NCBI GenBank assembly: GCA_902632595.1
Contig: CACPDC010000008.1
Coordinates: forward strand, 1-64,000
DNA from: an uncultured SAR116 cluster alpha proteobacterium
GTDB lineage: Bacteria; Pseudomonadota; Alphaproteobacteria; Puniceispirillales; Puniceispirillaceae
Direction: 5' to 3'
DNA length: 64,000 nt
Part shown: positions 1-11,709 of the stretch, one piece after another
Layout: the number at the start of each line of letters is the position of its first letter
How positions within the stretch are numbered: position 1 is the stretch's first letter
The notes under the pieces: model-generated
The model's input: only the letters and a program-made list of their open reading frames with translations
The model's database searches: none
Told to the model about the DNA's origin: nothing
Made by a program: the position numbers and the translations under genes

Positions 1-387
1 TTGTTTCTTATACATTTGGGCTTAATATTTGGCCTATCGAGAATTGCATCTTATTATAACGAGTCACTATTTTTATTAAAAAGGCTTAATGTTAAAGTTT
101 ATAAACTACCATTAGCTTTAAATTTTTTGGTAGTTTCTACAGTGATGGCTTTAAGTGTAATAGCATTATCGCAAGGTAAGCTCACTTTCTTTATTTTAAA
201 CGCTGCATTTTTATCCATCTGGTTTTTAGAACTGGGGGTAATATCCGGCAAACATTTTTTTTCATCACTGTTTGGTAATGATTTGCCAAAAGAAATTTGT
301 ATCTTTATTGGTTTTATTTTGGCTATGAATGGTGGCTATTTTACTTTAATGTTTATAGTGAGATTATTTAGCTCATCAACATTTTGA
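1..387 (+). CDS. Membrane protein of unknown function, probably 5'-truncated by the window edge
   Basis: The reading frame is open from the first base; the only start inside the window is a TTG at base 1, so the true start probably lies upstream. The 128 visible residues are strongly hydrophobic with about four predicted membrane segments (roughly residues 1-15, 36-60, 60-80 and 98-122). I do not recognise a family. It ends 10 bases before the next small gene on the same strand, which suggests the two are co-transcribed. Confidence 0.5.
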   Translation: MFLIHLGLIFGLSRIASYYNESLFLLKRLNVKVYKLPLALNFLVVSTVMALSVIALSQGKLTFFILNAAFLSIWFLELGVISGKHFFSSLFGNDLPKEICIFIGFILAMNGGYFTLMFIVRLFSSSTF

Positions 388-397
388 AAGTCTGTGA

Positions 398-607
398 ATG
401 GATAACAAGACCATTTGTGAACTCTTTGAAAGTTCAGTTGAAGCGTCCGATTTTAAAAAATCGTTCATGTGTGCACAAGAGTCTTTAAGGGAGGGCTTAA
501 TGAGCAGTCCATGGCCAGTATTAGTCTATGCACTGAGTGTCATTTTTGTGGCATTTTTAATTCAGCGAGTGGCGACTAGTAATTCGAATCAAAACAAAAA
601 AAATTAG
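398..607 (+). CDS. Small single-pass membrane protein, hypothetical
   Basis: This 69-residue protein has one hydrophobic segment (about residues 38-58) followed by a short Asn/Lys-rich tail, which fits a small protein anchored in the inner membrane. The N-terminal half is acidic and holds two cysteines (positions 7 and 25). It starts 10 bases after the stop of the preceding membrane protein gene, with a weak GAAAG ribosome-binding sequence inside the end of that gene. Family not recognised; the tight spacing is the main argument that it is real. Confidence 0.45.
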   Translation: MDNKTICELFESSVEASDFKKSFMCAQESLREGLMSSPWPVLVYALSVIFVAFLIQRVATSNSNQNKKN

Positions 608-630
608 TTATTTAAGTTTCAAGATAGTCT

Positions 631-1743
631 TTAATTTTTTTCTTTTTGGGATATGTTTTTTGCAAATTCTTGCATGCCTTTAAGTAAGCCACTAAAGACG
701 TCAGGGAACTCTTTTTGAAGTTGTTTTCTAACCTTTCCAAGTAATAATTTTGAGACTAAATTGGTACTTTGCACATCACCAAATCTTATTTTCATAATAC
801 ACCCATCGTCAGTACCGACAAATTCATTTGTTTGATGCAAAATAATTCCAAAGGGTAACGAATGTTTAATTGAGATATACTCGCCAGGGTTCCAGTCGGT
901 AATCTGCATTTTGAATACTTGTTTGCCGTGATGACAATGGAGTTGTGTGCCTTCCCCCTGCGTTTTCTTGCCTTTATTGAATATATCTATTTTATCAGCA
1001 TGAAGATTTTGCTTACGCCATTCTGGTTTAGTATACATGAGAAATGCAATATCAGTAGAAACGCTCAAATCAATAGATAATTCTTCAATTAACTGTTTTT
1101 CGTCTTTTTCAATATAATGTTTTTTTACCTTTTTATTCTGTTTCCATTTCTCATTTAAATCTTCAATCAGAAATTTAACTTCCCCGATATGATCGTAAAT
1201 TTCTAACCCAGCTAAAGGTTCATCCACATTGAAAACAATTTTCATCGCTTCGAGAGCTTTTTCTGTTATCAGCAAATAAGCTTCAACATTTTTTGTTTCA
1301 ACTACATTATTTTTCATTAATCGGAAGATGGTATTAACGTCTGATCCAGCTAATTCCTTGTTCCCATTAAATTCCTGTACTCCATACTCACCATGATGTA
1401 AAAACATTTTTAAATCGAGCTCATTCATATGTTTGCAAGCATTGCATTCACAATCCGTATTAATATTTATGAGCTCCTTTCTATCGGCGAAGGCAGTATA
1501 AATTCGATTTGAAAAATCAATCATAAATTGAGAATTTTCATAGGCGGTATTTTCTGAATGTGCAAAGATTGCATCACCCATAAATTTGGATATTGTAACA
1601 GATTTATTAAATACAGGAACTATTGCATCAAACAGGTCTTTTATTATTCCATTGGCATGTTCAAGCTCAGTATCTGCTAGAAATCTAGTGTAACCAGAAA
1701 TGTCTGCAACTAACAAAAAGAAAGAATAGTCATGAATAAACAT
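631..1743 (-). CDS. DUF2652-type class III nucleotide cyclase-like protein with C-terminal SRPBCC-like domain
   Basis: Residues 8-150 have the class III nucleotidyl cyclase fold. The metal-ligand aspartates are present in VADISGYT (D14) and FMGD (D57), and the transition-state pair is present as DVNxxxR (N137, R141). A lysine (K53) sits four residues before D57, where adenylate cyclases keep an adenine-specifying Lys. A Cys-rich insert (C98, C100, C103, H105) fits my memory of DUF2652 proteins. Residues from about 225 onward resemble an SRPBCC/START-like ligand pocket. Its product is unknown: the fold suggests cAMP synthesis, but members are uncharacterised. The ATG overlaps the divergent aldehyde dehydrogenase start by 12 bases, and no clear ribosome-binding site precedes it. 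Confidence 0.75.
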   Translation of the reverse strand: MFIHDYSFFLLVADISGYTRFLADTELEHANGIIKDLFDAIVPVFNKSVTISKFMGDAIFAHSENTAYENSQFMIDFSNRIYTAFADRKELININTDCECNACKHMNELDLKMFLHHGEYGVQEFNGNKELAGSDVNTIFRLMKNNVVETKNVEAYLLITEKALEAMKIVFNVDEPLAGLEIYDHIGEVKFLIEDLNEKWKQNKKVKKHYIEKDEKQLIEELSIDLSVSTDIAFLMYTKPEWRKQNLHADKIDIFNKGKKTQGEGTQLHCHHGKQVFKMQITDWNPGEYISIKHSLPFGIILHQTNEFVGTDDGCIMKIRFGDVQSTNLVSKLLLGKVRKQLQKEFPDVFSGLLKGMQEFAKNISQKEKN

Positions 1744-3150
1744 GATTTTTATATAAATGGAGATTGGGTAAAATCAGAAAGCCCAGATAAACTTAATGTT
1801 ATAAATCCTGTTACAGAAGAGAGCATTGCTCAAATTAGCCTTGGAAACAAACAAGATGTTGACAAAGCCGTTAAAGCAGCACGCCAATCATTTGAATTGT
1901 ATTCACAGACCTCAGTGGACTATAGATTAGATTTATTAACCACCATAAGAGAAATTTATAAACAGAGACTTGGTGACGTTGCTCACGCGATACAAACTGA
2001 GATGGGGGCTCCCGAGCATCTTGCTTATGGAGCCCAGGCAAAAGTTGGTCTAGCCCATCTTAAAGCAGCAATAGAGGCACTAAAATCTCATGAAACAGAA
2101 TACAAATATGGAGACTTCATTGTTAGGCATGAACCTATAGGGGTATGTGGTTTAATTACACCTTGGAATTGGCCTATTAATCAGGTTTTATCTAAATTAG
2201 CGCCGTGTCTTGCTACTGGATGCACCGCTATTTTAAAACCCTCTGAAATTGCACCTTTATCATCTATGGTAATATGTGAAATACTAAATGAAGCCAAAGT
2301 TCCAAAGGGTGTTTTTAATCTAATTAATGGCACAGGAACAGTTGTTGGGGAGGCAATGTCTTCACATCCTGGTATTGATATGATGTCATTTACAGGTTCA
2401 ACAAGGGCCGGTATTGCAGTAGCTAAAGCCTCAGCAGACAGCGTTAAGCGAGTAAGTCAGGAATTAGGCGGAAAGTCCGCTAATATTATTCTTAATGATG
2501 AACTATTTGAAAAGTCGATAAAAAAGGGAGTTTTAGAATGTATGGAGAATTCTGGACAGTCGTGTAATTCGCCTACGCGCATGCTTGTACCCATTTGCCG
2601 AAAAGATGAAGCGTATTCGATTGCAAAAGAAACTGCTGAAAGTATCTATCCGGGGGGACCTAATAATGAAACAACAACGATTGGTCCTTTGGTAAGTGAT
2701 ATTCAATTTGAAAAAGTACAAAAACTTATTCAAGTTGGTATTAACGAAGGAGCTAAATTAATAACAGGAGGAACTGGAAAGCCAGAAGGATTAACAAAAG
2801 GCTATTATGTGAAACCTACGGTTTTTGGAGATGTCAGTAATGATATGAAAATCGCACAAGAAGAAATATTTGGACCTGTTCTCTCAATTATACCCTATGA
2901 AAATATTGATAATGCGATATCTATAGCAAATGATACCGATTATGGGTTAGCTGCTTATGTTTCTGGAAATAGTCACGAGCAACTGAATTCTATTGCTAGA
3001 CGCTTACGTGCTGGACAAATACACCTTAATTATGGCTCAGGTGGAGCAAAAGCGCCGTTTGGGGGTTATAAACAATCTGGAAACGGTCGTGAGAAAGATA
3101 AGTGGGGATTAGAGGAATTTCTAGAGGTAAAAGCTATCATCGGGATATAA
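1732..3150 (+). CDS. Aldehyde dehydrogenase family protein
   Basis: A full-length (472 residue) NAD(P)-dependent aldehyde dehydrogenase, which oxidises an aldehyde to a carboxylic acid in the cytoplasm. Visible hallmarks are the PWNWP oxyanion-hole motif (N146), the cofactor lysine in LKPSE (K169), the ELGGKS motif carrying the general base E245, and the catalytic cysteine in GQSC (C278). The substrate cannot be read from sequence. The start gives the usual N-terminal sequence of the family, ending in YINGDWV. The gene is divergent from, and overlaps by 12 bases, the DUF2652 cyclase-like gene, so the two must share a very compact control region or use different true starts. Confidence 0.93.
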   Translation: MNKHDFYINGDWVKSESPDKLNVINPVTEESIAQISLGNKQDVDKAVKAARQSFELYSQTSVDYRLDLLTTIREIYKQRLGDVAHAIQTEMGAPEHLAYGAQAKVGLAHLKAAIEALKSHETEYKYGDFIVRHEPIGVCGLITPWNWPINQVLSKLAPCLATGCTAILKPSEIAPLSSMVICEILNEAKVPKGVFNLINGTGTVVGEAMSSHPGIDMMSFTGSTRAGIAVAKASADSVKRVSQELGGKSANIILNDELFEKSIKKGVLECMENSGQSCNSPTRMLVPICRKDEAYSIAKETAESIYPGGPNNETTTIGPLVSDIQFEKVQKLIQVGINEGAKLITGGTGKPEGLTKGYYVKPTVFGDVSNDMKIAQEEIFGPVLSIIPYENIDNAISIANDTDYGLAAYVSGNSHEQLNSIARRLRAGQIHLNYGSGGAKAPFGGYKQSGNGREKDKWGLEEFLEVKAIIGI

Positions 3151-3260
3151 CACTAAATAATTGATTTAGATTATAGTGATAACTAACTAATCATTTATGA
3201 AATGGTGTTCTTGGTTATAAACTATTGAATATATGCATTATAATCGAAATAAAAATACGT

Positions 3261-3596
3261 TCACCTGTTTTCTAACTCCTCAAGCAAAAGCATTAATCTT
3301 TCCCCAGCTGCTGCTGCTTCAAAGCTTTCAACAATACAACCGTCGTTTTCTAACCAGGGTAACTTACAATTGGTAAAAATTTCACTTTTAGGTTTGAATC
3401 CGATGGATTTTTCAAAAACACCTATTGGATATGCTCTCATTCCAGGGAATGCCTCTGCTATAGTAACTATTCTGCAACAACAAATTGGGCAAAAATGCGC
3501 ACTTACATCGCCGCTCCCACCTAAATAGTTATATACTCTGGTTTCTCCAGTAACTTTAATCTCCTCATCTGCATATAACGAATAGATAAAGATAAT
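3261..3596 (-). pseudogene. GFA/CENP-V family protein, C-terminal remnant (5' part missing)
   Basis: The minus strand has an open frame of 111 codons with no start at its upstream end; it is closed by an in-frame TAG at 3597-3599. The translation contains HFCPIC followed by CC, then a GMRAYPIGVFE segment and an IFTNCKLPWLE segment. Together these match the C-terminal half of glutathione-dependent formaldehyde-activating (GFA-like) zinc proteins. The N-terminal half with the first zinc cysteines (GxCxCG and CHCxxC) is absent, and the stop of the neighbouring CMD-family gene lies only about 20 bases upstream. I read this as a gene broken by a deletion. An internal ATG could only give a 59-residue fragment. 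Confidence 0.7.
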
Positions 3597-3620
3597 CTAA
3601 ATTTGTAAAAAACCTTTACG

Positions 3621-4253
3621 CTAAACTTGCTTGGCCCAATAATCTTCAGAATTTTTGAACTCTTGCCATTTTTCGGCTGTCTCAGCTCCCTCTATCATAG
3701 ATGCACTTGTTCCTGTTAGTACTTTGTGATGATCAATATTTAGTGTTCTAAGCCATCTTTGCTGACCCATTGTAATTGAAACGAAATATCCAATCTCAAC
3801 AATCTCTGCTTCAGAAAAATACTGATATAATTGTTCCCACAATTTATCATCACACTCTAAATCCCATACAATTGCCTGAGTGTATCTCAAAGCAGCTTTT
3901 TGTTTTTCATTATATCGGTCTGATTTTTCAAAATTGAGTAAATCTTTATAATCACTCTCTACAAGACCTTTATTTTTAGATTGGATTGAACGTTGATTGC
4001 CACAATATTCACATTTCACTGAATGTGATACGTATACTCTGCATAGTTCTTTAATCGTGTGTTCGGCAATTCCCTCATGGAAAACCGTTTGCCAAGTATT
4101 TGCAAAAGACCAAAAGGCTGCAGGAACGTGAGCTCTAATTGCTTGGCTTTCAGGCCTTGGTGTGCCTCTAACTTTACATCTCTCCAATTCGGCACGCATG
4201 TCTTCATCTTTTATTGTTTCAGGTTTAACATAACTTATACGTTGCGTTGTCAT
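3621..4253 (-). CDS. Carboxymuconolactone decarboxylase (CMD)/AhpD-like family protein
   Basis: A 210-residue all-helical protein of the CMD/AhpD superfamily. The signature stretch around residues 60-90 contains the redox pair CEYC (C81, C84) in the position used by AhpD-like peroxidases, and a C-terminal IVEIGYFVSI helix follows. Such proteins act on peroxides or lactones; the actual substrate here is unknown. A longer frame from a TTG at 4265 exists, but that TTG overlaps a GGAGG ribosome-binding sequence placed five bases before the ATG at 4253, so I use the ATG. The neighbour downstream is the GFA remnant. Confidence 0.8.
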   Translation of the reverse strand: MTTQRISYVKPETIKDEDMRAELERCKVRGTPRPESQAIRAHVPAAFWSFANTWQTVFHEGIAEHTIKELCRVYVSHSVKCEYCGNQRSIQSKNKGLVESDYKDLLNFEKSDRYNEKQKAALRYTQAIVWDLECDDKLWEQLYQYFSEAEIVEIGYFVSITMGQQRWLRTLNIDHHKVLTGTSASMIEGAETAEKWQEFKNSEDYWAKQV

Positions 4254-4373
4254 TACACCCTCCAATTTTTAAACCACATATGTTTAATTTTATGTAAATC
4301 AAAAGTTACTGGCATGATCCACTTTTGAAATAATAGTGCCATAAAAAATGTACAACACAAAGGCAGTTCTTAT

Positions 4374-4574
4374 TTAAGATAGTTTTTTGGAGGAGACCTG
4401 CGAATAAAAATCATTAAAATAGTATCCTGCATCATCAGTTATAAAAAAAAGGGCCGTTTCTAATATTAAACCAAGTGTCAAAGCAGCAAAAAATCGAATA
4501 CGGTCTGATATATCAAATTTAATAAATATTGGTCGGCTTAAGTAATAAAAAGAAATAAAAAAAAGACCTGTCAT
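4374..4574 (-). CDS. Small membrane protein, hypothetical
   Basis: A 66-residue protein with two hydrophobic stretches (about residues 3-15 and 27-45), separated by a charged segment. An AAGGA ribosome-binding sequence lies about six bases upstream of the ATG, which supports translation. It sits alone between the CMD-family gene and the cyclase-TPR gene, on the opposite strand to the latter. No family recognised. Confidence 0.4.
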   Translation of the reverse strand: MTGLFFISFYYLSRPIFIKFDISDRIRFFAALTLGLILETALFFITDDAGYYFNDFYSQVSSKKLS

Positions 4575-4741
4575 AAATTTCCTTTTTTTAATTACACTTT
4601 CGGTATAAGCGGCTTTTGAAAATCTCCTTAAACCGTGCTTAATATAAATGACAGATAAACTATCAATTTTATTTTTAATCTATTTTTGAGTGCTCTTCGA
4701 AAATTAGTCCACATTTTTATCATATTTCGTACATGGAGGTA

Positions 4742-4760
4742 ATTTTATTTTAAATAAAAT
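4742..4760. repeat. 9-bp perfect inverted repeat behind an orphan GGAGGT sequence
   Basis: ATTTTATTT (4742-4750) and AAATAAAAT (4752-4760) are perfect inverted copies around one base. They follow a perfect Shine-Dalgarno sequence GGAGGT at 4735-4740 that has no start codon at normal spacing; a seven-codon frame, including its stop, begins with the ATG at 4733. A stop in the cyclase frame at 4751 rules out that this site directly starts the cyclase at 4790. It may be an operator-like site or part of the cyclase leader. Confidence 0.4.
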
Positions 4761-4789
4761 AAAAAATAATATAGTCTATTTTTATAGCT

Positions 4790-6688
4790 GTGATAATTAT
4801 AGCTGTGCTTAAAAAATTAGACAATATTCCAAAATTAAATCAAAGTCTCAGTGTTTCTATGAATGAAAATGTTGTAAAATTAGAAAATAATTTCAATCAA
4901 GTTATAGAACGCAAAATTGCAGTCATATTTGTTACAGACGTTGTTGGCTTCAGTAAATTAATGGAAATTAGTGAGGATAAAACATTAAAGAGTTTTAGAG
5001 CCTGTAGAGATATATTAGATAATTTATTTTCAGAGCATGGTGGAAGGGTTTTTAATACAGCTGGAGATTCCATTTTAGCTGAATTCCAAAGTGCTGTTTC
5101 AGCAATCGTTTGTGCAAGTGAATTTCAGAAACTTATAAAAGAAAGAAATGATACATTATCAAATGAACCTAAAATTTATTTTAGAGTTGGTCTAAATATG
5201 GGAGATGTCATAGTTGAGGGAGAAAATCTTTATGGTGATGGCGTTAACGTTGCAGCAAGATTGGAGGCTTTATCCCAGTCGGGTGGAGTTTGTTTATCTA
5301 AAAGCATAATGGACTTTGTAAATAAAAAGACTGAATTTTTTTTTAATGATTTAGGAGAACAAAAAGTCAAAAATACTATTGTCCATGCCTTTGATCTTAG
5401 TAACCCTGATTTAGAGAAGCGTTCTAATATTGATGAAACAATAACCGCTGCCGCATCTGCAAAAATAAAAGAAGGCAGCGTGCCTCCAACCATTGCTGTT
5501 CTACCTTTTACAAATTTAAGTGCCGATCAGGAGCAAGAGTTTTTTGCGGACGGGATAACAGAAGATACTATTTCTTATTTTTCAAAATCAAAGACATTTC
5601 CAGTTGTTTCATTAAATTCAGTTTCAAAATATAAGAATACCAAAGAGACAACAAAAGATATTGCAAATGACTTGAATGCAAATTATTTGGTACAAGGCAG
5701 CATTCGAAAAGGTGGAAATAAAGTAAGAATATCTGTTAAACTTACTGATGTACTAGAAGATATTCAAATTTGGTCTCAAAGTTGGGATAGATTATTAGAC
5801 GATGTATTTGAGGTGCAGGATGAAGTATCACAAAAAGTTTCTGCTCTGGCTCAGCCAGCAATAATTATTAACGAACAAAATACTTTACATAATAAGGGAC
5901 TAGAGGTTTTTAGTGCATGGGACGAATACCTTCATGCATTAAATTCTTATGACAAAAATGGCGAGGCAAAAATTGTTGAAGAAAAAATCAAATATATTTA
6001 CGAGGCAATAGAGCACGCAGAAAAATCGATTGCACTCGATCAAAAATTAACTGACGCGTATAATGTTCTTGCTTCAAGCTTATTTTTTCTAAGATTAGAA
6101 TCCTCCCTTCAACATGATCGGGAAAAAAATGAAGCAAGGTTTAAAAAGGTCGCAGAAATTAGCTATAGTCTTGACCCAAATAATCCTGATTCAGTTATGA
6201 ATATGGCATATTTATATCGAATATCAGATGATGAAGCAAAATATCGAGAGTTTGTAAATAAAGCAGTTGAAATAAACCCACATCATCCGAGGTCATTATT
6301 AGCGAAAGGAATGCTTCATTTAAATGAATGTGATTATGATAATTCAATTGAATTATTAAACAGAGCTTATGAAACTAACCCAAAAAGGGTACCTTTTTAC
6401 GAAATTATGCTCTTATTCTGTCATTTAGGAAAGAATGATTGGGTTAGTGCTCATCAATCAGTGGATAGGAGTATGCGGGAAAATGATCATAGCAGATTCC
6501 ATGCTTTTAAAGCTATAATTTTAGCACATGAAGGCAAGATTGATGAGAGCAAACAATGGCTTCAAAAGTATCAGCAAAATAGACCAGAAATTAAAACAAT
6601 AGAGGATTACGAAAACGTGGTTCCAAGTGTAAATGAAGAGGTTAGAAATCTTTTAATAGATGGAATTAGAAAAGCTGGTCTTAAATAA
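4790..6688 (+). CDS. Adenylate/guanylate cyclase with TolB-like domain and TPR repeats
   Basis: A 632-residue signalling protein with three parts. A class III cyclase domain (about 40-205) has metal aspartates D50 and D93 and the transition-state residues N153 and R157 in NVAARLE. A TolB/FlgO-like segment begins near IAVLPF (about 235-370). A helical TPR-like region covers about 380-610. The residues at the nucleotide-specifying positions are asparagines (N89, N146) rather than Lys and Asp, so ATP or GTP use cannot be assigned. There is no signal peptide or membrane segment. The GTG at 4790 lacks a ribosome-binding site; an ATG at 4859 is the alternative start and leaves all domains intact. 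Confidence 0.88.
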   Translation: MIIIAVLKKLDNIPKLNQSLSVSMNENVVKLENNFNQVIERKIAVIFVTDVVGFSKLMEISEDKTLKSFRACRDILDNLFSEHGGRVFNTAGDSILAEFQSAVSAIVCASEFQKLIKERNDTLSNEPKIYFRVGLNMGDVIVEGENLYGDGVNVAARLEALSQSGGVCLSKSIMDFVNKKTEFFFNDLGEQKVKNTIVHAFDLSNPDLEKRSNIDETITAAASAKIKEGSVPPTIAVLPFTNLSADQEQEFFADGITEDTISYFSKSKTFPVVSLNSVSKYKNTKETTKDIANDLNANYLVQGSIRKGGNKVRISVKLTDVLEDIQIWSQSWDRLLDDVFEVQDEVSQKVSALAQPAIIINEQNTLHNKGLEVFSAWDEYLHALNSYDKNGEAKIVEEKIKYIYEAIEHAEKSIALDQKLTDAYNVLASSLFFLRLESSLQHDREKNEARFKKVAEISYSLDPNNPDSVMNMAYLYRISDDEAKYREFVNKAVEINPHHPRSLLAKGMLHLNECDYDNSIELLNRAYETNPKRVPFYEIMLLFCHLGKNDWVSAHQSVDRSMRENDHSRFHAFKAIILAHEGKIDESKQWLQKYQQNRPEIKTIEDYENVVPSVNEEVRNLLIDGIRKAGLK

Positions 6689-6897
6689 TTAAAATAAATA
6701 AAAAACTGATAAATTATACATTCATGATAGAGCAACTCTTATACGCTAAAACAAGAGAGGTTTTCCTTTATCACGCCAAAAAGTTAAATAATTAATGTCA
6801 AAGTTTTAGCGTTCAGAGCTATATTTAAGCTTGATTTATACTTACCATTCTAAAGAATAATCATATTAAAAACATTAATGAATTTCCGGGTATTTGA

Positions 6898-7317
6898 ATG
6901 CTATTAAAATATTTGACCATTCTGGAATTAGTATTTTTTATTTTAGGTATAACTTTACCTCTAATGATCGTAACAGAGTTCTGGTTTTTTACGAATGAAA
7001 TTTCTCTTATTCATATAATCATTGGTCTACTTACAAATGGTGAATACCTTCTAGGTATGATGATAACCGTGTTTGGTGTGATAATTCCACTAATAAAAAT
7101 TACAAGCAGAATTTTAAATTTTCGGCACCTCAACAAACTTCCATTATATAAATTTTCAATGTTGGATATATTCCTGATAAGTTTTATTATATTTGCAAGC
7201 AAGTTTTCTCAAATATTTAACGCTAAAATTGATATTGGCTTTTACTTCCTTTTAGCATCCGTATTAATTGGATTTTTACAGGTCATATTTTCTTATCGCA
7301 AAAACTTTCTCTCTTAA
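6898..7317 (+). CDS. PqiA-like (paraquat-inducible protein A family) membrane protein
   Basis: A 139-residue protein with four predicted membrane segments. The order of a short LGITLPL stretch, a GEYLLGMMI stretch, and the motif FSMLDIF before the third helix matches single-domain PqiA family proteins, in which a [GK]-W/F-SMLDVF signature is typical. Two-domain PqiA proteins work with MCE-domain PqiB in lipid trafficking, but no MCE gene is visible here, so the role is unassigned. It stands alone, convergent with the sulfatase gene. The ATG at 6898 is taken for lack of a better start. Confidence 0.7.
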   Translation: MLLKYLTILELVFFILGITLPLMIVTEFWFFTNEISLIHIIIGLLTNGEYLLGMMITVFGVIIPLIKITSRILNFRHLNKLPLYKFSMLDIFLISFIIFASKFSQIFNAKIDIGFYFLLASVLIGFLQVIFSYRKNFLS

Positions 7318-7411
7318 CTAAGTTTTAATCCTTTAATTGATATATTGATAATATGTCTACAAATAATAAAAATCAGTTTCTAATCACGTGCTCCGGAACC
7401 TCTTATCTTAT

Positions 7412-8773
7412 TTATCTTTTTTCCGATTCCGTTATAAAGTTAGAATCAAAGTTTGGGTTTAATAAAGGCATGGATGCATTAACAGATTGCAAATACGCCT
7501 CGAGCTTATTCAAAAGACTCTTATAGAGTTTAGGTTTTTTACTAATCAAGTTATTCTTCTCAGATATATCCTTTCTAAGGTCAAATAACATATCAGAATT
7601 TTGTCCATAATGTTTTATAAGTTTCATATTATCAATAATTATTGCAGAGGCAGGTTTTTGGTTTTTTTGATAGTGTGGAAAATGAAATATCAGTCCTTCA
7701 TTTGGCCTCGAACTTGGTCTATAACTAGCATCGAAAGTATCAAAAATGTTAATTCCATCTAAATATTCAGGATAATTTTTTAAACCTGCTATGCTCATAA
7801 AAGTAGGGAATAAGTCATATCCTGCTATTGGAGAGTGATTAATCGTATTTTTTGGAATTCCAGGGCCTTTTATTATAAAAGGAACCCTAATACCACCTTC
7901 CCAAAGAGCGCCTTTTCCTCCTTTTAAGGAGGAAAAATTTCGAAATGCCCCATTATCTGCCATATATATAATGAATGTATCTTTTGCTATATTTTTTGCT
8001 TCAAGATAAACTAGTAATCTTCCAATGGATTCATCCATATTCTCATTAAGAGCAAGTCTTTGAATCTCGATCTCCTGAAGACTGTCCTGATATTTTTTAT
8101 GATATTTTTGTATAGTATCATTTAGTGCATTTTCTGGATGATGTAGCGCATGAAAAGAAAGTTGAATATAGAATGGTTTATTTTCCTTTTGTGACTCATC
8201 TATAAATTTTTCTGCTCGCTCTATCATGCCAAATAAATCCACTGGATTAAGACCTGACATATTAGCAGCATATTTATTACCAATGTCTCCATCACTTAAA
8301 TCATAGCCATGACTCTCTGGACCACCTCCAAGCAAATGCCATTTACCAAGATGGGCAGTTTTGTAACCGGCTGTTTTAAGCATTTCACCTATAGTGATTT
8401 CTGCGGAATCTATATTTTTGTCGTGCTGAGGAGGAATCAAATATTGTCCGCTATCAACAAAAGGTGCTGCTTTGGTCCAATTTAACCTTGCTGGAGTTTT
8501 TCCAGTCTGGATACTGATTCTTGAGGGCGAACATACAGGAGAAGGTGCATATGCATTTGTAAAACGTGTACCCTCTGCTGCGAGTAGTTCTAAATTAGGA
8601 GTTTCGTCATAAAAGCTAATCGAATTTTTGACGTTAGGATTCATCAAAACAGATAAACCAGACCATGATTGATCATCAGACAGCATAAAAATAATGTTTT
8701 TCTGAGTTGCCTTAGCAGTAGCAGATAGCGAAAAAATTAATATAAATATTATTAATTGGAATGGATAACCCAC
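7412..8773 (-). CDS. Secreted sulfatase (arylsulfatase family)
   Basis: A 453-residue hydrolase of sulfate esters. The N-terminus is a signal peptide (hydrophobic residues 6-18, cut near ATA), pointing to the periplasm or outside. Metal ligands are in the LSDDQ motif (D33, D34) and near ADNG. The catalytic motif is CSPSR (C81), so it is a Cys-type sulfatase whose cysteine must be converted to formylglycine; no maturation enzyme gene is in the window. The GTG start at 8773 is supported by an AGGGAGA ribosome-binding sequence about five bases upstream. Its minus-strand neighbour is a secreted polysaccharide lyase, suggesting a sulfated polysaccharide as substrate. Confidence 0.93.
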   Translation of the reverse strand: MGYPFQLIIFILIFSLSATAKATQKNIIFMLSDDQSWSGLSVLMNPNVKNSISFYDETPNLELLAAEGTRFTNAYAPSPVCSPSRISIQTGKTPARLNWTKAAPFVDSGQYLIPPQHDKNIDSAEITIGEMLKTAGYKTAHLGKWHLLGGGPESHGYDLSDGDIGNKYAANMSGLNPVDLFGMIERAEKFIDESQKENKPFYIQLSFHALHHPENALNDTIQKYHKKYQDSLQEIEIQRLALNENMDESIGRLLVYLEAKNIAKDTFIIYMADNGAFRNFSSLKGGKGALWEGGIRVPFIIKGPGIPKNTINHSPIAGYDLFPTFMSIAGLKNYPEYLDGINIFDTFDASYRPSSRPNEGLIFHFPHYQKNQKPASAIIIDNMKLIKHYGQNSDMLFDLRKDISEKNNLISKKPKLYKSLLNKLEAYLQSVNASMPLLNPNFDSNFITESEKR

Positions 8774-8938
8774 TATTTCTCCCTAAATCAGTATTTTTGA
8801 ATAACTTATTTAAAAAAATTAAAATTATTTCAATGAGTTGAAAAGGTTAAATAAATATAAGTCTAAACCCATCAACATCCTATTCAAAAAAATAGTATAT
8901 TATTTTTTTTTCCGGTAAGCCTACGTCTTTTTGGCTTC

Positions 8939-8983
8939 AACAACAATAAGAACACCCTCTGGAGCGTCTTAAAGCTTGTTGTT
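8939..8983. repeat. Imperfect long hairpin between polysaccharide lyase and sulfatase genes
   Basis: AACAACAA (8939-8946) pairs with TTGTTGTT (8976-8983), and the inner TAAGA (8947-8951) pairs with TCTTA (8967-8971). This gives 13 pairs with one four-base bulge and a 15-base loop. No T-run follows immediately on either strand, so it is not a standard intrinsic terminator, but it lies just past the lyase stop and could slow transcription or protect the mRNA end. Confidence 0.4.
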
Positions 8984-9037
8984 CCCTCACTTATATCCTA
9001 CTTTAGTTGGTTAGATAGGCATTGCTTGATTTAATAT

Positions 9038-9943
9038 CTAATCTACTGGAGACAACGAAGTGTTGAAATTTATATCAACTTCTTCAATAGAATTCCCAGT
9101 TCTGATTTCATCGTAAAAAACAACTTGTGTTGGCATCTCGTCTGTCTTTCTTCTTTTTTTATATTTCGTTAAAAAACTTCTATAGATTCCGTATTTAAAA
9201 TAGATTTCTTGCGGTTCAAAAAGAATCGGATTTTCATCTATTTGAAATTTCTTTTCTCCATTAAGCCAACCAATCATTTTATGATTTTTAAAATCTAAAC
9301 AAAAAGAAATATCTGTCCATTTAGACTTTAATTCTTTTAACTTCGCGAAAGTTCGTTCAACTGTTTGATCACGCACATTTTTGGGGTCGCCAGATAACTT
9401 ATGCCATTTAAAGACTAGTTTTCCTTTCTTTGCCCCAATCTGGATTAGTGGGGGAAAAGATTTCAAACCCCCAGCTTTTCCCTCAGGACCACCAATTTGA
9501 TGCACCTGGCCTAAATCTGTATTGGTTGGATGAACATCAACAAAGTTGGGTGCGATTTTTAAACTATAAAAATAGCATTTTTGTCCCACTGGTTTCTGCC
9601 TAGGTCTACTAGAAAATTCAAATCTCTCTCTATCATTTTCACAATCATTCCAACCATCCATTGGGAAACAATCCCCGTTCCTTAATTCAAAACGCTGGTA
9701 TTTGCTTCCCATTCTTGCTTCGGATTTATCTATTAGTAATGAAAAATTATAATCCTTTTGCCCCTCACCATATGTGAAATGGTTTGCATACCCAGAGTGA
9801 ATAGGAGCGGTTAAAGCTATTTTACCATTCTCAAAAAAAATAGTTGTTTCATCGGCTTTAGAAAGGCTAACCCCCTCTGCGATAGCAAAAAGGGCAAGAA
9901 AAAATACTACTGTGATATTTAGGCTGATTTGCATGGTTTCCAT
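9038..9943 (-). CDS. Secreted polysaccharide lyase (heparin lyase I-like family)
   Basis: A 301-residue protein with a signal peptide (hydrophobic residues 10-24, likely cut around 30). The segment QRFELRNGDC near residue 85, the central HQIGG region, the KWTDISF segment and a C-terminal YGIYRS stretch followed by VVFYDEIR are typical of beta-jelly-roll lyases of the PF14099 group. Such enzymes break acidic glycans by beta-elimination; the glycan is unknown. Together with the nearby sulfatase it suggests breakdown of a sulfated uronic-acid polysaccharide such as an algal one. ATG 9943 and ATG 9934 are both possible starts; the first overlaps the upstream gene by 25 bases. Confidence 0.75.
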   Translation of the reverse strand: METMQISLNITVVFFLALFAIAEGVSLSKADETTIFFENGKIALTAPIHSGYANHFTYGEGQKDYNFSLLIDKSEARMGSKYQRFELRNGDCFPMDGWNDCENDRERFEFSSRPRQKPVGQKCYFYSLKIAPNFVDVHPTNTDLGQVHQIGGPEGKAGGLKSFPPLIQIGAKKGKLVFKWHKLSGDPKNVRDQTVERTFAKLKELKSKWTDISFCLDFKNHKMIGWLNGEKKFQIDENPILFEPQEIYFKYGIYRSFLTKYKKRRKTDEMPTQVVFYDEIRTGNSIEEVDINFNTSLSPVD

Positions 9944-10248
9944 CTCTTTAATGACACTGATGTAATCACTACACGAAACAATCCATCTAATTTATTTCTA
10001 CAATGTTTTAGATGTTCAATCCGCTCTCTATTACCAATTGCATCTTTCCAAAAATTATTCGACTGATTTTCTGGAAGATTAAAAGTGTCCCAGTAAGGCT
10101 TTCGATCTTTATATTTTAATTGGTCTTTCCAGATTGTTACCGCTACCGTACCCATGTCTTCAGATATAGCACTCCAAGATGTATAAACATTTTTTTGTTT
10201 TGTTCCAAAATGCTCAAATGCGCTTTTTTTGGTGTAATCTTTTGGCAT
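9919..10248 (-). CDS. Hypothetical protein, possibly C-terminally truncated
   Basis: A 109-residue soluble protein containing SWSAISEDMGTVAVTIWKD and a later GNRERIEHLKHCRNKLDG helix ending in FRVVI. I have the impression of an uncharacterised family of about 140-150 residues with this pattern, so the last 30-40 residues may be missing. The end overlaps the lyase signal peptide region in another frame, which fits loss of the original 3' end. Function unknown; whether it is a working gene is uncertain. Confidence 0.45.
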   Translation of the reverse strand: MPKDYTKKSAFEHFGTKQKNVYTSWSAISEDMGTVAVTIWKDQLKYKDRKPYWDTFNLPENQSNNFWKDAIGNRERIEHLKHCRNKLDGLFRVVITSVSLKRWKPCKSA

Positions 10249-10347
10249 ACTGCTACTTACCTCTTTTTTAAACGACTAATGTTTATTTGCTGGAATTATT
10301 TTCTACGGATAGCTTTTTATTGGGTTAAGGTTTTTGAAGATAAAATC

Positions 10348-10569
10348 TCAATTGAAAGGAAAATTAGAGCGCGGCGTATCGGGTATTAAAAGCCTTAGTT
10401 CCTTATCATCTGCAACAGGTATACAAATAAATTTAGGGACAGCCATACCTAAGTCGCGCAGTTCCATACCACTATTCTGGGCTGAAGCGTAACAACTTCC
10501 AGCATCATCAAACCTCAAACCAGAATCTAAAAAGTTTCCAGTTAATACCCATATCAAAAGGAATTTCAT
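10348..10569 (-). CDS. Small secreted protein, hypothetical
   Basis: A 73-residue protein with a short hydrophobic N-terminus (residues 2-14) like a signal peptide, followed by a mature part with two cysteines (C27 in GSCYAS and C49 in FICIPV) that could form a disulfide bond in the periplasm. An AGGGG ribosome-binding sequence lies several bases upstream of the ATG. Small alphaproteobacterial proteins of this build are common and uncharacterised. Confidence 0.5.
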   Translation of the reverse strand: MKFLLIWVLTGNFLDSGLRFDDAGSCYASAQNSGMELRDLGMAVPKFICIPVADDKELRLLIPDTPRSNFPFN

Positions 10570-10628
10570 TCATCACCCCTATGTTTAAAAAACTAATTTT
10601 TATCATAATCCCAAATCTGAATTTTTGT

Positions 10629-10904
10629 CTACATTCTTGGAATTTTTCCTCGCCAAGTATCAATAAGACCAAAGACATACAAAATGTATCTTGTGGCAAA
10701 AAATAATGAAAATAGCATTACCGCGTCTATAATAATCCACACAAAAAGATTGAAGTTACCATTATCTGTGACATGAAATATAAAGGGAAGGATAAATCTA
10801 TCACCTATAACCGTCATAAACAGAAAAGCCACTAAAATAGGTATTCCATTTCTTAGCATATAATCTTTATAAAGAAATTTTCTAATTAATCTATTATATG
10901 GCAT
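10629..10904 (-). CDS. Small two-pass membrane protein, hypothetical
   Basis: A 91-residue protein with two hydrophobic segments (about residues 21-42 and 52-76) flanked by basic residues, fitting an inner-membrane protein with both ends on the cytoplasmic side. No recognised family and no clear ribosome-binding site ahead of the ATG. It is the last gene before the gene-free stretch that leads to tRNA-Pro. Confidence 0.45.
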   Translation of the reverse strand: MPYNRLIRKFLYKDYMLRNGIPILVAFLFMTVIGDRFILPFIFHVTDNGNFNLFVWIIIDAVMLFSLFFATRYILYVFGLIDTWRGKIPRM

Positions 10905-11090
10905 TATAGATGTTCAGTCTTCTGAAATAATTAAACGACGTTAAATTACACTAACGATGACACAAAAACATGATAAAATAGTGGTTCATAAAAATTTAAC
11001 ACAGCGACAAAGCTTACATCGTCGCACGTGCGATCTGTTTTAGATAAGAATATGAATTAATAAAAATGTCTTATACACTGTTTTTATGTA

Positions 11091-11106
11091 TTTATTAATT
11101 AATAAA
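11091..11106. repeat. 16-bp perfect AT palindrome
   Basis: TTTATTAATTAATAAA reads identically on both strands. Being pure A/T it could be chance in such DNA, but its length is notable; it could be a binding site for a dimeric protein or a cruciform-forming sequence. Confidence 0.45.
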
Positions 11107-11131
11107 ATAGCTCCTATATATTACTTATATA

Positions 11132-11251
11132 TACCCTATTCTTCTCATAACATAACCAATTACCGTCCCTTCAATAGGGTAAGGTAATTGGTAATTGGGA
11201 TAATATTCGTATATAACACATAACGATCTGGACTATTAAAGGATATTATCC
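11132..11251. repeat. Interleaved inverted repeats (possible structured RNA or switch)
   Basis: TACCCTATT (11132-11140) is complementary to AATAGGGTA (11173-11181), and CCAATTACC (11156-11164) is complementary to GGTAATTGG, which occurs twice with a period of seven bases (11183-11191 and 11190-11198). The pairs interlock in the order A-B-A'-B', so they would form a pseudoknot or two mutually exclusive hairpins. A third pair, GGATAATATTC (11198-11208) with GGATATTATCC (11241-11251), has ten of eleven positions matched. Strand and function are unknown. Confidence 0.5.
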
Positions 11252-11541
11252 GTATCAGAACTTATCTATATTTATATACTTATACCCTTATATTCACCCT
11301 ACCCTTTGGTGATGTGATGGTTATTGATGAGAACTGATAGTGGAATCTCTTTAGCATCATCTGATACCAAAAACTGTTTGTCAACGACTCAGAGAGCTCC
11401 TGAGAGCCAATAAATGGCATTTAATTGATCACCCGATGGCCAACAAGGGAAGTACTTTGTTTTGGCGTTCGTCTTTAATGCCAAAAAAACTTCTATGTGT
11501 TTGAGAGATCTAACTGTTGATAAAAGAATCAGTCGTATAAA

Positions 11542-11564
11542 TTTTGAACCAGTTTTTGAACCAG
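11542..11564. repeat. Tandem direct repeat of about 12 bases
   Basis: TTTTGAACCAG (11542-11552) is followed directly by TTTTTGAACCAG (11553-11564). Two copies only. It lies 70 bases from the tRNA-Pro 3' end, so a link to an old attachment region is possible but unproved. Confidence 0.5.
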
Positions 11565-11632
11565 ATTATCTTTTTAGCCAAAATATATCTTCGATGAGAT
11601 ACATTTAATATATTGTATTAATTGAAGAAATT

Positions 11633-11709
11633 TGGTCGGAGCGGCGGGATTCGAACCCACGACCCCTACACCCCCAGTGTAGTGCGCTACCAGGCTGCGC
11701 CACGCTCCG
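11633..11709 (-). tRNA. tRNA-Pro (GGG)
   Basis: The minus strand folds as a complete tRNA: a seven-pair acceptor stem (CGGAGCG with CGCTCCG), an anticodon stem CTACA/TGTAG enclosing a seven-base loop with anticodon GGG, and a T-arm with GGTTCGAATCC. Discriminator A and an encoded CCA end follow at 11636-11633. It lies upstream on the map from, and downstream in transcription of, the merR-ihfA genes, a common alphaproteobacterial arrangement. Its 3' end faces the accessory-looking left segment. Confidence 0.97.

Follow-up and report, generated by a model that had tools for sequence, protein, structure and literature searches.

A noncoding block of 624 nt (11009-11632) in the window, i.e., the whole 64-kb stretch of DNA analysed here, is the tRNA-side end of one type of integrative island, which has been transferred between species at a tRNA-Pro(GGG) gene. 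The block contains a cluster of interlocking inverted repeats (11132-11251), whose core is the best-conserved part of the block. We put at about 50% the probability that this island end brings its own tRNA 3' half and that the repeats serve as a cis site at the DNA level. The core is most likely, though not proven to be, a DNA site that acts in recombination or replication.

Interlocking inverted repeats in a noncoding block

On the plus strand two perfect 9-bp pairings interlock in the order A-B-A'-B', as the original prediction had stated and as direct reading and a repeat search confirmed. Arm A (TACCCTATT, 11132-11140) pairs with A' (AATAGGGTA, 11173-11181), and arm B (CCAATTACC, 11156-11164) can take either of two partners, since the B' arm (GGTAATTGG) occurs twice with a period of 7 nt (11183-11191 and 11190-11198), just as predicted. 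The third, near-perfect pairing of 11 bases was also found: its left arm (GGATAATATTC, 11198-11208) and right arm (GGATATTATCC, 11241-11251) match at 10 of 11 positions, with one T-G and nine consecutive perfect pairs. When 11155/11192 is counted, arm B and the first B' copy form 10 bp. A CCCT/AGGG stem, on which the prediction was silent, is nested inside this pairing, so that a single nested hairpin (11155-11192) is favoured.

The hairpin (10+4 bp) has a predicted energy of -20.5 kcal/mol; the lone stems reach -8.1 (A:A'), -10.7 (B with the second B' copy) and -6.4 kcal/mol (third pairing). For the RNA of 11100-11290 the ensemble of nested folds, which by definition holds no pseudoknots, gives the hairpin a probability of 0.998, the third pairing 0.49, and A:A' and B with the second B' copy zero. 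The z-scores of the RNA fold of 11125-11260 are -2.95 (plus strand) and -1.03 (minus strand), that of the DNA fold is -3.23.

A shuffled-sequence control had been named beforehand as a possible refutation, and the observation withstood it. The region 10905-11632 (728 nt) holds five perfect 9-bp inverted pairs within 70 nt, compared to a mean of 0.37 in dinucleotide shuffles (n = 3000), none of which reached five, and an interlock was present in only 7 of the 3000. For the 120-nt stretch alone, which was picked post hoc, none of 5000 shuffles reached four pairs and one contained an interlock. Over the 64 kb, 39 pairs of the same kind were counted vs 23.8 in shuffles, and the only two interlocks both lie at 11132-11251, with arm A in common; at least one interlock occurred in 3 of 20 shuffles of the full window. 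To find one interlock within 64 kb is thus only mildly unusual; it is the clustering that is rare. The case for the repeats rests on local density together with conservation.

The description of the stretch as gene-free and rich in structure proved real. The block in which it sits abuts the 3' end of the tRNA-Pro(GGG) gene (11633-11709, minus strand, detected by ARAGORN and Rfam), which is the insertion site. Beyond the tRNA lie genes for a MerR-family protein, a bacterial DNA-binding protein of the HU/IHF type, a ketoacyl-ACP synthase III (FabH) and a fatty acid synthesis protein of the PlsX type. On the other side of the block are small ORFs without Pfam match and genes for a polysaccharide lyase, a sulfatase, a PqiA-type protein and a cyclase with TPR repeats. 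The sulfatase and polysaccharide lyase genes (7412-9943) are adjoining cargo. Genome G009 has lyase DNA that is 87% identical and lies ~1 kb from the block copy there. A segment of 325 nt at 10279-10603, containing a 73-aa ORF without Pfam match, is 92% identical to L058 3173-3496, near the far end of the island of genome G003; relative to the tRNA the two stretches are oppositely oriented.

At the edge of the block, 11012-11062 (plus strand) may be the C-terminal relic of a DUF5681 or terminase-small-subunit-like gene, with the tail LTSSHVRSVLDKNMN followed by a stop. In G003 the frame ends in the same tail and opens at an MRNA start, a start region 87% identical over 47 nt to that of the intact G003 gene; the window lacks this MRNA start. 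The similarity of the relic tail to GVRKVLGARK and GVRKVVDARK is weak. A further candidate, a relic of a dihydrodipicolinate-synthase-type gene matching from 11344 (33-35 nt, 88-89%, genus g14), was dropped as probable chance; by tblastn the window matched over 20 residues (45%, E 0.008), but the top three matches of G003 and of G009 did not include this part with a similar score.

Copies of the block and conservation of the core

The block is found at length in three genomes of one SAR116 genus: that of the window (G000), G003 and G009. This holds for a search of its first 392 nt in 136 genomes of the order, and the same three were recovered when the whole of 10905-11632 was searched in 101 genomes. 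Other matches were short and weak. Genome G002 matches only 11009-11106 (98 nt) and the 79 nt adjoining the tRNA, and has the A-form tRNA (see below); the block thus keeps its two edges there, but the core is gone and the middle is replaced. Searches of phage and plasmid collections gave short matches only (E 0.05 or worse). In viral contigs neither the hairpin with AGGGTA inside nor two other block patterns had any match; a looser hairpin pattern occurred in two contigs.

When the three copies are aligned, only one of the 67 columns of the core is variable, compared to 72 of 552 in the rest of the block (Fisher p 0.0023, gap columns excluded). Of 554 windows of 67 nt, the 42 with at most one variable column all start within 11117-11158. 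Arms A, B and A', the first B' copy and the left arm of the third pairing are identical in all three copies. The second B' copy reads GGTAAATGG in G003, and the right arm of the third pairing differs at 11241 and 11243 in G009 and at 11242 in G003, with no matching change in the left arm. The loop of this pairing carries a 13-nt insertion in G003, apparently a tandem duplication (L013 2230-2242, between window positions 11225 and 11226).

The block of the window is 93.6% identical to that of G003 and 91.5% to that of G009, whereas for fabH these values are only 76.9 and 77.6%; because the block is this much more alike than the gene beyond the tRNA, it must have moved horizontally. Among the five genomes compared, G002 is nearest to the window in fabH (80.5%), yet it is without the middle of the block. 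Between G003 and G009 the block (91.2%) diverges like the core genome (fabH 91.1%). The neighbouring genes differ among the window, G003 and G009, except for the lyase common to the window and G009, so that horizontal movement with variable cargo, as expected of an island, is seen.

The tRNA-Pro gene as a hot spot for island insertion

The surroundings of the tRNA gene were searched in ten genomes of the genus. The 3' half of tRNA-Pro occurs in two forms, which differ at five of the last 52 bases. The A form is present in the window, G002 and G003 and in truncated copies in G004 and G009, whereas the full genes in G001, G004, G006, G007, G008 and G009 have the B form; this count omits another tRNA-Pro(GGG) in G008 (C61), which is more diverged, and G005 showed no matching 3' half. 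All three copies of the block are linked to the A form, and so are the block edges in G002. A 25-nt pattern was found at 14 places in the ten genomes with up to three mismatches, and its reversed control at none.

In G003 a displaced 52-nt half of tRNA-Pro lies on the same strand, 12,774 nt from the A-form tRNA, and matches the B form at 48 of 52 positions and the A form at 43. Because tRNA-Pro and this displaced half bound a 12.8-kb island with genes for sulfur oxidation (L058 2123-14949; G003:C6:24122-36948), the block forms the end, on the side of the tRNA, of an island of the integrative kind. The 13 ORFs of at least 80 aa in the G003 island include a DUF4379 treble-clef protein with PHROG matches to endonucleases, SoxY, SoxZ, a molybdopterin oxidoreductase, cytochrome c, flavocytochrome c sulfide dehydrogenase (FCSD), copper-binding, thioredoxin-like and rhodanese proteins, a phosphoesterase/5'-nucleotidase protein that is probably of the SoxB type, and three ORFs without Pfam match. 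Of these three, the ORF by the far att copy has a best PHROG match without known function and as second match the terminase small subunit (E 3.5e-5). Relatives of this protein occur in 14 of the 136 genomes, itself included; the two that were scanned score above the Pfam cut-off for DUF5681 in G015 and below it in G006. Two viral contigs also encode relatives, at 39-44%.

No integrase was detected by Pfam among the 13 ORFs of the G003 island or among all ten of at least 80 aa in 1-11632 of the window. For the island of the window no second att copy was found, either in the window or elsewhere in the G000 genome (73% complete). An apparently complete element is present at tRNA-Pro(GGG) of G015 (C1; L120 4035-5438, L121 10272-10872), with an integrase carrying Arm-DNA-bind_3 next to the tRNA and, at the opposite end, a DUF5681 gene; its att copy of 116 nt (93%) is 21.7 kb away. 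In G015 and G058 the integrase ORF begins ~150-165 nt from the tRNA, where the block-bearing islands have the block.

One FkbM cassette is common to G004 and G009 (96.7% over 1255 nt). An A-form partial tRNA copy terminates it, and right after this copy the two genomes diverge. The FkbM methyltransferase cassette lies at L052 6849-8651 and L051 1-1231; the full tRNA-Pro gene is on its other side in G004 and on another contig in G009. These results show that tRNA-Pro is a hot spot for the insertion of islands and for the exchange of the tRNA 3' half.

Arm-like repeats at island ends

Two tandem 12-bp repeats, TTTTGAACCAG(T/A), are located at 11542-11565, 68-91 nt from the tRNA, and are candidate arm-type sites of an integrase. 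Both read GCACCAG in G003, which is a concerted change. As an exact match CTGGTKCAAAAACTGGTKCAAAA occurs only in the three block copies (window, G003 and G009), and with three mismatches it has 22 matches, compared to 5 for the control.

Related elements are marked by a 19-mer of 11-bp direct repeats, found at 11 places in 9 of 136 genomes vs 5 for the reversed pattern. The direct-repeat motif TGTC(G/T)ACACTATGTC(G/T)ACA is located near integrase or DUF5681-type genes in SAR116 islands at tRNA-Pro and tRNA-Val (L056 6607, L058 2245, L104 8129 and L123 7728-7757). The 19-mer lies within ~75 nt of a DUF5681-type gene in G003, G006 and G015, within ~70 nt of the predicted start of an integrase gene in G015, G058, G060 and G086, and ~580 nt from an integrase fragment in G007; near the copies in G001 and G044 neither type of gene was seen. 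Since the window does not contain it, even with up to three mismatches allowed, the block end must use other sites.

Possible functions of the core

The original prediction offered a switching RNA, a recombination site or a replication-linked element. A switching RNA is not supported, as no compensatory change is seen in the named stems, the second B' copy is broken in G003 and one hairpin dominates the ensemble. The absence of compensatory changes in relatives is one half of the refutation that had been set out beforehand. The arms barely vary, however, and three such close sequences give this check little power. The recombination site fared better as regards its setting, which is that of a mobile element: the stretch lies at the tRNA-side end of a moved island, and a relative carries an att-type duplication of the tRNA half.

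Read as a DNA site, the core would belong to an island type that uses site-specific recombination to enter tRNA-Pro(GGG) in SAR116 and supplies its own tRNA 3' half, and the copy in the window would have arrived by the same kind of integration. The interlocking repeats would most likely be a cis site bound by proteins during recombination, replication or packaging; the iterated GGTAATT and its inverted copy would then be recognized by proteins instead of forming RNA stems. An integrase of some other element could act on the block. Against this reading speak the failure to detect an integrase in the block-bearing islands or a second att copy in the window or the rest of its genome, the missing 19-mer, the loss of the core in G002 and the number of known copies, which is three. 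The core is also 435-501 nt away from the tRNA, which is the far edge of usual att arms.

A core without present function would be decaying island DNA, which seems conserved because the block was shared recently. The resemblance of the block edge to a gene relic, the replaced middle in G002 and the equal divergence of block and fabH between G003 and G009, in a set of three sequences in all, agree with such decay; the concentration of invariant columns in the core (p 0.002), where all of the best-conserved windows lie, makes it rather unlikely. We regard it as distinctly unlikely that the block is a structured RNA, transcribed on the plus strand, in which the core would form a hairpin or an H-type pseudoknot (A:A' with B and the second B' copy). 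The plus strand of all three blocks does fold better than 40 of 40 shuffles, with z-scores of -5.1, -3.2 and -3.8 (minus strand: -2.3, -2.1 and -2.6), and in a helix at alignment columns 499-544 most of the varying pairs are kept, one by a two-sided change. However, of 188 pairs predicted by RNAalifold (covariation term +3.14) only two show two-sided changes and 21 are broken in at least one sequence, and the nested ensemble gives the pairs of the pseudoknot no weight. The invariant arms A, A' and B and first B' copy are uninformative on RNA. When the local substitution density was kept, the retention of the fold was not significant overall (p 0.09, 0.025 and 0.43 for the plus and 0.07 for the minus strand). 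One of 32 control windows reaches a z of -4.1 (15 shuffles each), the G002 counterpart has +2.1, and at the gathering score Rfam finds only the tRNA in the block region. Three close sequences cannot tell a core conserved as a DNA site from one conserved as an RNA.

In Rfam no usable RNA family turned up apart from the tRNA. In the whole window it gives two matches at the gathering score, both tRNA; at E up to 5 the best non-tRNA match in the block region, HPnc0260, has 40.4 bits vs 59 and overlaps the tRNA. An RNA model of 11130-11255 (R1) scored strongly in the three known genomes, and its four other matches had E 0.18-0.49, two of them being the window's own reverse strand. The uncontrolled values for fold conservation (p 0.13, 0.007, 0.027 and 0.007 for the plus strand, 0.18, 0.02, 0.027 and 0.24 for the minus strand; 4 of 6 comparisons) were weakened by the density control and we make no claim from them.

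It is improbable that the hairpin is a transcription terminator or insulates the tRNA operon from the island. The 10+4 bp stem is stable enough to suggest one and lies ~90 nt past the open-frame tail ending at 11062, but a T run follows on neither strand, a terminator scan omits the hairpin (its sole hit is 11021-11034), and the duplicated arm and A:A' would be left unexplained. Still more speculative, and in our opinion quite improbable, is a spreading cis element of an unclassified kind, either structured DNA or an RNA of ~600 nt, that would mark and control the tRNA end of integrase-less SAR116 cargo islands and let foreign integrases move them in trans. If it is true that the core is read in trans, integrase-less islands could be counted and tracked by it.

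Comparison with known systems

Through the block it becomes possible to approach the way in which marine bacteria with small genomes trade metabolic cargo, such as sulfur oxidation and polysaccharide breakdown, at a single tRNA gene. The process itself is a known one, and we regard the window as a well-placed example of it with one unexplained conserved structure. In the literature on SAR116 genomic islands, taken at the level of titles and the beginnings of abstracts and leaving aside most subscription papers and the founding works on tycheposons and encapsidated elements, the block is not described.

With tRNA-integrating islands that encode tyrosine integrases (PF13356 and PF00589) the block-bearing islands share the variable cargo, the horizontal movement and, in G003, the duplicated tRNA 3' half, and differ from them in that Pfam detected no integrase. 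Cis-mobilizable elements (CIMEs) have att sites without an integrase. The G003 island, which lies between tRNA halves and in which no integrase is seen, resembles them, whereas its two ends bear different types of repeats and mobilization in trans is here only putative.

Cassettes of Methylophilaceae with repeats at tRNA ends are described together with tycheposons in PMC10872708. Such additive flexible genomic islands and tycheposons resemble the SAR116 islands in that tRNA 3'-end repeats set off the cassettes (here in G004 and G009), in their aquatic hosts and in carrying cargo; the tRNA border is shared, but in the block-bearing islands Pfam detected no tyrosine recombinase. Marine satellites are treated in PMC10803314, which also mentions encapsidated integrative elements. 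Compared to phage satellites (PICI/PICMI), no primase, AlpA-type regulator or integrase was detected by Pfam in the G003 island, whereas the DUF5681-type gene that both the G003 and the G015 element carry at the far end is a feature in common with satellites such as PICMI.
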